NCBI RefSeq assembly: GCF_002214585.1
Contig: NZ_CP014862.1
Span: forward strand, 1,178,001 to 1,242,000
Origin: Thermococcus profundus
GTDB taxonomy: Archaea; Methanobacteriota_B; Thermococci; Thermococcales; Thermococcaceae
Direction: 5' to 3'
DNA length: 64,000 nt
Shown here: piece by piece, positions 514 to 2,944 of the stretch
Layout of the letters: every line of letters begins with the position of its first letter
Numbering within the stretch: the stretch's first letter is position 1
Notes under the pieces: model-generated
Database searches by the model: none
Told to the model about the DNA's origin: nothing
What the model saw: only the letters and a program-made list of their open reading frames with translations
Made by a program: the position numbers and the translations under genes

Positions 514-990
514 ATGAACGAGCTTGAAGCCCTAGCCCTGGCACTTGAAGTTGAGAAGAACGAGCTCAAGTTTTACCTGAAGCTCGCAAGAAAGGCCAAA
601 GACGAGAGGGCTAGGAAGATGTTCCTCTTCCTGGCGAATGAGGAGGCCGAACACTGGAACCTCTTCGAGGAGAAGTTCGTCGAAGAGCTAATAGAGAAGT
701 GTGAGCTTCCGGCCGTTGACAGGGAGCTTGCCGAAAAACTGGTCGTTGAAGAACCTGAGACCCTCAGCGAGGTCGATGCAGTGAAGGTCGGCATGGAGCA
801 GGAAAAGCTCACCTGGGAGTTCTATGAGAAAGCTGCAAGAGAAGCTGAGCATGAGAGCGTTAGGAGGATTTTCGAGGAGCTAGCAAAGGTTGAGAAGGCC
901 CACTACGAGCTCCTGAAGGCTCAGTACGACGCAGTGATGAAGACGGGCATATGGATGGACTACCAGGACTTCAGCCTCGAGGTGGACTGA
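514..990 (+). CDS. Rubrerythrin-like ferritin-fold protein (no rubredoxin domain)
   Basis: A 158-aa di-iron four-helix-bundle protein, probably a peroxide-reducing rubrerythrin relative. It shows two symmetric halves: Glu-rich helices (EVEKNELKFY; MEQEKLTWEFYE) each followed by an ExxH helix (NEEAEHWNLFEE; KVEKAHYELL), supplying the usual diiron ligands. The C-terminal Cys4 rubredoxin domain of classical rubrerythrin is absent; a single Cys near residue 67 is not part of a metal motif. A strong site (GGGGGTGATACC) precedes the ATG. It is the second gene of a likely bcp operon and converges with the Fur-family regulator, whose stop is only a few bases away. Confidence 0.85.
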   Translation: MNELEALALALEVEKNELKFYLKLARKAKDERARKMFLFLANEEAEHWNLFEEKFVEELIEKCELPAVDRELAEKLVVEEPETLSEVDAVKVGMEQEKLTWEFYEKAAREAEHESVRRIFEELAKVEKAHYELLKAQYDAVMKTGIWMDYQDFSLEVD

Positions 991-993
991 TCT

Positions 994-1374
994 TCATCCT
1001 TTCACAAGCACGTTGACGAGCTTTACCTCTTTTCCCAGTCTCTTTTTCAGCGCCTCGATGATCTCCGGATCTTCAACGTCAACGACGCTCTCCCCGGTGA
1101 TGAGGTTTATATGGGGTTTTGTGTTGATCTCAACCCTCGTTTCCCCTTCTATTGAAAACAGTTCAACGAGTCCAAGCTCCCTGAGCGTAAGCAGGTTGGA
1201 GTAAAGAGTCGAAAAGCTAACCGTAGGGAAGTCATCCCTTATCCGCTCAAGGAGGCTGTTCATGGACGGATGCTCGCTTCCCATTTCATCCAGAACTTCT
1301 ATCAGCTTGAGCCTCTGAGGCGTTAGTTTGTGACCCCTTTTCTTCAGCGCGTTAACAGCTTCTTCCTTCCACAT
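994..1374 (-). CDS. perR: Fur/PerR-family transcriptional regulator lacking cysteines
   Basis: A 126-aa winged-helix regulator of the Fur family: HKLTPQRLKLIEVL and TVSFSTLYSNLLTLRELGLV are the DNA-binding elements. The dimerisation half keeps PHINLITGE and VVDVEDPE, the places where PerR-type proteins hold His/Asp ligands, but there is not one Cys in the protein, so the structural Cys4 zinc site of Bacillus PerR is missing. It sits head-to-head with a Dps-like gene across a perfect palindrome, and beside peroxiredoxin, rubrerythrin and ferritin genes, which argues for peroxide or iron sensing. The PerR label is inferred from family and context; specificity is not proven. Confidence 0.75.
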   Translation of the reverse strand: MWKEEAVNALKKRGHKLTPQRLKLIEVLDEMGSEHPSMNSLLERIRDDFPTVSFSTLYSNLLTLRELGLVELFSIEGETRVEINTKPHINLITGESVVDVEDPEIIEALKKRLGKEVKLVNVLVKG

Positions 1375-1409: not shown

Positions 1410-1434
1410 CTATTTAGAAATTACTTCTAAATAG
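1410..1434. promoter_or_regulatory. PerR/Fur-type operator palindrome
   Basis: Perfect 10-base arms, CTATTTAGAA and TTCTAAATAG, around a 5-base centre (ATTAC). The arm sequence TTAGAA...TTCTAA resembles bacterial PerR boxes. It lies in the divergent region between the Fur-family regulator and the Dps-like gene. It abuts the TATA element TTTATTAAG of the Dps-like gene on one side and TTATAAAC of the regulator on the other, so one bound dimer could control both promoters. Confidence 0.75.
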
Positions 1435-1479: not shown

Positions 1480-2031
1480 ATGTCAGAACACAACAGAAGG
1501 CTCGTCAAGAGAGCGGGCATAGATGTGGAGAGGCTCTTGGACATGCTTCTGAGAGCCGCCGCGGCGGAGTTTACAACCTACTACTATTACACCGTTTTGA
1601 GAAACCACGCGGCCGGTCTCGAAGGGGAGACCATAAAGGAGATCGTTGAGGACGCGCGCCTTGAGGACAGGAACCACTTTGAGGCTTTGGTGCCGAGGAT
1701 ATACGAACTTGGAGGAGAACTCCCGAGGGACATTGCTGACTTTTCAAAGATGGCGTGGTGCCGCGATGCTTACCTTCCGGAGGAGCCTACGGTTGAGAAC
1801 ATCCTGAAGGTTCTCCTCGAGGCTGAGCGCTGCGCTGTTGGTGTGTACACGGAGATATGCAACTACACCTTCGGCAAAGACCCAAGAACATACGACCTGG
1901 CTCTGGCGATCCTCCACGAGGAGATAGAGCATGAAGCCTGGTTTGAGGAGCTCCTCACCGGAAAGCCGAGCGGCCACTTCAGGAGGAGCAAGCCGGGGGA
2001 GAGCCCCTACGTCTCAAAGTTCCTGAGGTGA
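1480..2031 (+). CDS. Dps-like (DPSL, thioferritin-type) iron-storage/peroxide-protection protein
   Basis: A 183-aa ferritin-superfamily protein resembling the archaeal Dps-like proteins described from Pyrococcus furiosus and Sulfolobus. Diiron ligands appear in [11 protein letters not shown] (Glu), [12 protein letters not shown] (ExxH), [18 protein letters not shown] and [14 protein letters not shown]. The two Cys flanking the third helix are the pair that marks this class (thioferritin). It would oxidise Fe(II) with H2O2 inside a 12-mer cage. ATG at 1480 has GGTGA five bases upstream. It stands behind the PerR-like palindrome, divergent from the Fur-family gene, and is probably its main target. 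Confidence 0.85.
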
Positions 2032-2072: not shown

Positions 2073-2375
2073 ATGCTTGCCAAATACCCATTTGAACTCC
2101 CCAAGGATCGGCCCCTCACCAAGACGGAGATAGCGCAGGCCCTCCGCTGGGCGATTGAAGCTGAACTAGATGCCATAAACATCTACGAACAGCTGGCAGA
2201 GGGAATAGAGGACGAGAGGGTAAGGCACATCTTCCTGGATGTTGCCAACGAGGAGAAGGAGCACTTCGGAGAGTTCCTCGCGGCACTCCTTGAGATCGAT
2301 GAAGAGCTTGCAGAGTACCTCAAACACGGCTTTAAGGAAGTCGAAGAGGAAACGGGTATAAAGGTCAAACTCTGA
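2073..2375 (+). CDS. Free-standing encapsulin-type ferritin domain (EncFtn-like)
   Basis: A 100-aa ferritin-like protein: EAELDAINIYEQLAEG carries the first Glu and VANEEKEHFGEF the second Glu and His of a half-ferritin, so a diiron site would form across a dimer. From memory it closely follows the N-terminal ferritin domain fused to the encapsulin shell protein of Pyrococcus furiosus (AELDAINLYEQ, REEKAHVGEF, ELTGIEA). Here the reading frame stops right after TGIKVKL, where the fusion would continue into the shell. No shell gene is present within this block. It has its own TATA (GGTTATTAAG) and GGTGATACC before the ATG. Confidence 0.8.
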   Translation: MLAKYPFELPKDRPLTKTEIAQALRWAIEAELDAINIYEQLAEGIEDERVRHIFLDVANEEKEHFGEFLAALLEIDEELAEYLKHGFKEVEEETGIKVKL

Positions 2376-2500
2376 CTGCTTTCCCCCGTTTTTCAATGTT
2401 TTTCACTTTGATTTCAGATTAATCTTGGCGGTTGACGTACCTTAACGGACTATGAAAAACATTATTAAGGTTTGATGTTCATATTATCTCGGTGATGTCC
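2376..2500 (+). promoter_or_regulatory. T-rich terminator and promoter of the next ferritin-like gene
   Basis: After the EncFtn-like stop come the T runs CGTTTTTC and GTTTTTC (about 2388-2404), suitable for archaeal U-run termination. Then the TATA element CATTATTAAGG at 2459-2469 precedes the next gene by the usual distance. The TTATTAAG core recurs before three ferritin genes of this block. Confidence 0.45.
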
Positions 2501-2944
2501 ATGTCTGAACCACTTGTTAAGCATGCATATGAGACGGAGAAGAAAGCCGCCTCCAGCTATACCGACGGGTTGAAGCTCATACGAGGGCAGGGGCTTAGAT
2601 ACACCAAGGTCGAGGAGATAGTCGGGAGGATAGCCGTTGACACGGTTATACACAAGCATCTCATGGAGGCTATCCTCGACGCCCAGAAGGAGCTTGAGAA
2701 GCTCGCCGGTGAGGGGCCCATTGAGGAGGTAAAGGATGTTGAGCTCTCTCCAGAACAGAGGGCCTTGGTGAAGCGCTTCGCCGAGATGCACCTTGAGATT
2801 GAGAAGGACATGATAGAGACCTACCAGAAGATGGCCGAGAAGATGACTCACCCACTCTTCAAGGGGATCGCCGAAGCACTCGTTAAGAACGAGCAGGAGC
2901 ATCACAGACTTCTCGCTGAACTCATAGCCAAGTACAAGGAGTGA
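2501..2944 (+). CDS. Ferritin-like diiron domain protein
   Basis: A 147-aa helical protein with the pattern of a ferritin-like bundle. ETEKKAASSY, DTVIHKHLMEAI, HLEIEKDMIETYQ and VKNEQEHHRLLAEL contain the Glu and ExxH ligands, with an extra His pair (HKH) in helix 2. It belongs to the archaeal ferritin-like group next to rubrerythrin rather than classical ferritin. ATG at 2501 follows GGTGATGTCC; an in-frame ATG six bases earlier overlaps the site. It is monocistronic, with its own TATA. A role in peroxide or iron handling is inferred from fold and neighbours. Confidence 0.7.
   Translation: MSEPLVKHAYETEKKAASSYTDGLKLIRGQGLRYTKVEEIVGRIAVDTVIHKHLMEAILDAQKELEKLAGEGPIEEVKDVELSPEQRALVKRFAEMHLEIEKDMIETYQKMAEKMTHPLFKGIAEALVKNEQEHHRLLAELIAKYKE

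Follow-up and report, generated by a model that had tools for sequence, protein, structure and literature searches.

An EncFtn-type ferritin-like protein of 100 residues, encoded in the 64-kb stretch of DNA analysed here (the window), appears to belong, as a free-standing form, to the archaeal "fusion-FLP" lineage of EncFtn proteins. We think it probable that such free-standing proteins serve as soluble ferroxidases or as peroxide- or O2-consuming enzymes for which the encapsulin shell is optional, the shell having been lost at least four times at this locus. More tentatively, the shell-free form may be the common archaeal state of the lineage, a self-sufficient, cage-less iron/peroxide enzyme whose dispensable shell has been repeatedly lost, swapped between genera by recombination, and retained alongside a PerR-DPSL cassette. 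The EncFtn-shell fusion of P. furiosus is well studied, and EncFtn is described as a cargo that needs the encapsulin cage for iron storage; here, most genomes that carry the lineage are cage-free. In the literature searched, we found no paper on shell-free archaeal EncFtn or its repeated origin.

The identity of the protein is given by sequence and predicted fold alike. Its top sequence matches in the PDB are 5n5e (E=1.1e-26), the excised P. furiosus EncFtn domain, and 2e0z (E=4.8e-26), the fused P. furiosus particle, with the alignment spanning residues 2-98, as far as the TGI motif. An AlphaFold2 model of the monomer (pLDDT 92) again has 5n5e at the top of its structural matches (E=8e-8, TM 0.85), and the two-helix half-ferritin fold related to 5n5e and 5da5 is seen in both sequence and model. 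A sequence-only reading of this DNA had taken the protein for the P. furiosus EncFtn domain ending where the shell begins, and these matches bear it out. Against family profiles the protein scores 26.4 bits with the Pfam EncFtn-like model PF22277 (gathering cut-off 27.0), and its best NCBIfam match, EncB_fam, stands at 72 bits, under that model's 90-bit cut-off. The chain stops two residues past the TGIKV junction at which the fused homologues run on into linker and shell, and no targeting-peptide tail or fusion linker was found at its C-terminus; likewise, 66 of 74 free forms terminate within two residues of the junction.

The putative active site is fully conserved. The Glu, Glu, His and Tyr of the R. 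rubrum ferroxidase site (E32, E62, H65 and Tyr39) are all present in the window protein, and E31, E61 and H64, together with the adjoining Y38, are invariant in 169/169 aligned EncFtn proteins. By analogy with the excised P. furiosus domain, which forms a decamer with measured ferroxidase activity (PMC8346489; PMC11202242), the window protein would very probably assemble as a ring-shaped decamer, in which E31, E61 and H64 from each of two subunits would make up a di-iron ferroxidase center at the subunit interface. Purifying selection is evident across ten EncFtn pairs (dN/dS 0.03–0.09), including a fused and a free protein compared directly (G075 and G079, 0.07) and two shell-loss proteins compared with each other (0.03). 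At residue 63 (window 2259-2261), which adjoins the iron-binding His64, 83 of 132 free proteins have Glu and each of the 37 fused ones has Thr or Ala. The contrast tracks the tree and is inseparable from ancestry; it may reflect either ancestry or adaptation to the absence of a shell.

Neither a family-1 shell gene nor a cargo tail accompanies this protein. A profile search with PF04454, the family-1 shell model, over the whole 2.04-Mb genome (completeness 99.96%) gave no match at E<=1, while the same model detects the shell in ten relatives at E values of 1e-17 to 1e-22. Within the 64-kb window, tblastn with ten thermococcal shells returned nothing convincing (best E=0.015) and a shell HMM run against six-frame open reading frames returned nothing above chance (best E=0.76). 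No shell sequence was found in the 1.5 kb 3' of the gene (best E=0.2), and tblastn with the ten shells found no remnant above chance 3' of 74 free EncFtn genes. A highly diverged container, below the thresholds of these searches, could exist. By eye, the spacer that follows the gene shows the T-runs usual in archaeal terminators and, ahead of the next gene, a TATA-like ATTATTAAGG, just as the sequence-only reading had described it in speaking of only a terminator and promoter; that reading had also named a shell gene elsewhere in the genome, or a frameshifted shell remnant, as what would count against it, and for family 1 neither turned up. Its broader statement that there is no shell gene stands for family 1 and fails in another respect, as the source genome does contain two family-4 A-domain encapsulin genes (PF08967; G000:C1:889657-889932 and 190913-191140), of a kind general in Thermococcus genomes.

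The free form is not the rarity that the sequence-only reading implied. EncFtn occurs in all 74 near-complete Thermococcaceae genomes (65 free, nine shell-fused), retained under strong constraint although most of these genomes lack the cage, and among 94 Thermococcaceae genomes 75 are classed as free, ten as fused, and none as having both. In a sample of 250 Thermoproteota genomes, 98 carry EncFtn, in 38 of these inside an open frame long enough for a fusion; PF04454 is found in 0/56 of the free-form genomes, as opposed to 11/11 of the fused. The closest bacterial and methanogen relatives (L061-L075) also have free EncFtn reading frames in genomes that lack PF04454. Given the free-form majority in these counts, the shell-free condition is the usual state.

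Two observations from this survey stand somewhat apart. One class-Thermococci genome with a free EncFtn (G365) carries on another contig a separate 304-aa PF04454 reading frame (C51:6422-6982), which may be an unfused shell, a viral capsid, or a binning error. Some free EncFtn proteins from the Thermoproteota sample (L161 of G356, and L159/L160) group with Thermococcales, one of them being 73% identical to a Pyrococcus-type fused domain, and cross-phylum transfer is possible.

The gene lies in a cluster whose features are collected in the table below. Free and fused loci share one order, namely archaeoferritin-like gene, PerR (reverse), DPSL, EncFtn with or without shell, and FlpB, with the PerR-DPSL part optional; the order in P. 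furiosus is likewise PF1196-PF1195-PF1193-PF1192 (PMC3401498; PMC5012862).

Features of the EncFtn locus, in window coordinates
Feature	Position	Strand	Evidence or remark
Archaeoferritin-like protein	514..990	+	PF02915; corresponds to P. furiosus PF1196 in position and motifs
Fur/PerR-family regulator, divergent from DPSL	994..1374	-	PF01475, 6e-21
Palindrome TTTAGAA-N5-TTCTAAA, PerR-DPSL intergenic, probable operator	1413..1431	.	exact match
Dps-like protein (DPSL, archaeal DPS), directly 5' of EncFtn	1480..2031	+	NF040955
EncFtn-type ferritin-like gene, 100 aa, free-standing, without shell domain or targeting peptide	2073..2375	+	sequence and fold matches; start ATG 2073, stop TGA 2375
Spacer at the site of the ~240-aa shell in fused homologues	2376..2491	+	T-runs, TATA-like box, no shell remnant
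FlpB, conserved four-helix protein	2498..2944	+	weak rubrerythrin similarity, PF02915 26 bits

The archaeoferritin-like protein has two E-x6-Y and two ExxH motifs, as described for P. furiosus AFR. The regulator, for which the best NCBIfam match is PerR (under cut-off), corresponds in position to P. furiosus PF1195 (PMC3401498). The palindrome between regulator and DPSL, with spacer ATTAC, is exact, where 0.24 occurrences with up to two mismatches would be expected in 64 kb. It recurs with 0–3 mismatches at 36 of 41 DPSL loci and is a probable PerR operator. DPSL, placed two genes away in the sequence-only reading, is indeed present, as the immediate upstream neighbor of EncFtn; with a gap of only 41 nt, holding a Shine-Dalgarno-like GGTGGTGA, EncFtn is probably the second gene of an operon and co-transcribed with DPSL. 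On the other side, FlpB (148 aa, with ExxHH near its C-terminus) follows EncFtn in both free and fused loci, being found in nine of ten fused and 31 of 74 free ones; it has no PDB match, and its predicted structure (pLDDT 76) is of low confidence and too weak to use.

Where DPSL matches occur, they sit at the archaeoferritin-EncFtn locus, PerR and DPSL forming a cassette between these two genes in about half of the genomes and in all of the shell-fused ones. Three genomes have a DPSL with a stop, frame break, or truncation beside EncFtn (G069 C4:143574-144119, G077 C1:1123265-1123812, and G080 C1:1701417-1701584), so that the gene seems to decay in some genomes. At another locus (L128, in G005), archaeoferritin-like fragments lie at -396 and -123 upstream of EncFtn, probably a decaying gene.

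How, then, would a cage-less EncFtn dispose of its iron? The sequence-only reading had proposed handover to the Dps-like protein, and indeed an EncFtn that oxidizes iron and passes it to an adjacent DPSL cage, which replaces the shell, would suit a pair of adjoining, probably co-transcribed genes behind a conserved PerR-box-like palindrome. The distribution of DPSL across genomes is the reverse of that expected for a replacement, however, and makes it quite improbable that the proposal holds in general. Of 94 Thermococcaceae, 41 carry DPSL, comprising all ten fused genomes and 31 of the 75 free ones (Fisher test p=0.002, a descriptive value that ignores relatedness). Among the 65 near-complete free-form genomes 37 have no DPSL, and those with the clearest shell losses (G002, G079, G084, and G093) are of this number. 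DPSL as a substitute cage is thus contradicted by its co-occurrence with the shell. We give almost no credence to the idea that either of the family-4 A-domain encapsulins packages EncFtn, even though two such genes are there in the genome: family-4 cargo genes adjoin the A-domain gene, with the enzyme gene directly upstream of PF08967, whereas EncFtn lies far from both copies and carries no extra tail. One copy, moreover, immediately follows a deoC-like gene, an arrangement and a partner type known from family 4 (PMC8346489), and the copy at 889.7 kb has no obvious partner; we reject these shells as hosts on the grounds of the wrong neighborhood. Archaeoferritin, which in P. furiosus stores iron via iron-driven assembly (PMC3401498), occurs in 67 of the 74 near-complete Thermococcaceae genomes; it is missing from some genomes that keep EncFtn, and was rejected as an obligate sink. 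Four near-complete genomes (G005, G009, G011, and G021) have a free EncFtn and lack a PF00210 cage (E<=1e-8), DPSL, archaeoferritin (E<=1e-30), and a PF04454 shell, so that EncFtn cannot rely on any one container everywhere; other rubrerythrin-like proteins are possible partners. Container-free iron handling is directly testable in these four genomes.

The direction of change between free and fused forms is best read from the EncFtn tree (93 proteins, 100 columns). Its root rests on an outgroup in which both states occur, and its bootstrap support is not fully settled, so that shell gain may have taken place in part of the tree. The ten fused proteins do not form one clade, a single fused clade being rejected (AU p=0.0026), and the tree requires a minimum of four switches between free and fused. 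The main free clade, which includes the window protein, has support of 100/99; the free proteins of G093, G079/G084, and G002 are nested among fused ones, and the ten thermococcal shells form a single clade (100/100). Free proteins nested among fused ones, together with monophyletic shells, make a fused ancestor with repeated shell loss the simplest reading. The evidence thus favors a fused ancestor at this locus within Thermococcaceae and at least four later losses of what would have been an optional second domain, one of them at the root of the large clade to which the window gene belongs. The sequence-only reading had left the choice between deletion of the shell and an ancestral free form; within Thermococcaceae it is the former that is favored and the latter that is not. 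Rather unlikely, in our estimation, is the converse history, in which the free form is ancestral and the fused genomes gained their shell here, whether by fusion or by taking up an EncFtn-shell unit horizontally. In the deeper archaeal tree, where the free form may be ancestral, free proteins equal or outnumber fused ones, and they are common too in the nearest bacterial relatives, in genomes without PF04454, and horizontal movement is clear: in G068 the flanks are near those of free Thermococcus and the EncFtn-shell is near that of G001. More precisely, this genome, of the same genus as the window, is 92% identical to it in archaeoferritin and 97% in DPSL and only 63% in EncFtn, while its EncFtn-shell DNA is 85–97% (mostly >90%) identical to that of G001, from another genus, as against 62–92% in the upstream flanks; from this contrast the EncFtn(-shell) unit has probably moved between genera. 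A history of pure gain, however, would require the same shell to have been gained independently several times, always at one junction, to account for the nested free proteins and the one shell clade.

Most probably the window protein would act as a soluble cytosolic ferroxidase, or a peroxide or oxygen consumer, that uses up Fe(II) along with O2 or peroxide and leaves Fe(III) to whichever sink is present, potentially the ferritin encoded elsewhere in the source genome (PF00210, E=4e-46; G000:C1:262816), DPSL, or the archaeoferritin upstream in the cluster. EncFtn ferroxidase activity is much higher with the shell than without it in R. rubrum and T. maritima (PMC11202242), and without its shell the R. 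rubrum protein forms precipitates at high iron (PMC5012862), observations from which it follows that a free form may perform poorly as an iron enzyme. The genomes G075 (fused) and G079 (free), with 95% identity between their EncFtn sequences and 98% between their archaeoferritins, offer a natural experiment on what the shell contributes.

Among known systems, the closest solved relative is the P. furiosus fusion-FLP encapsulin PF1192/PFC_05175 (5n5e, 2e0z), with ~55% domain identity, the same di-iron residues, and a common neighborhood (PF1196-PF1195-PF1193-PF1192); the window protein differs in having no shell domain and in bearing Glu rather than Ala or Thr at residue 63. Short EncFtn proteins without a targeting peptide, the s-FLPs, are a recognized class that was once considered non-encapsulated (PMC11202242). 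One such protein, NE0167 of Nitrosomonas europaea (3k6c), resembles the window protein in fold (TM 0.70), but it is bacterial and only ~22% identical, whereas the archaeal free form derives, on our reading, from the fusion-FLP lineage. The FLP-TP cargo proteins EncC and EncB of M. xanthus (7s8t, 7s5c) have the EncFtn fold and di-iron site in common with it; unlike the window protein, they carry a C-terminal targeting peptide and reside inside a shell. Finally, P. furiosus archaeoferritin PF1196 (PMC3401498), whose counterpart lies upstream in the same cluster, likewise acts without a preformed cage, but it does so as a two-repeat four-helix protein that assembles on iron and belongs to a different branch of the superfamily.
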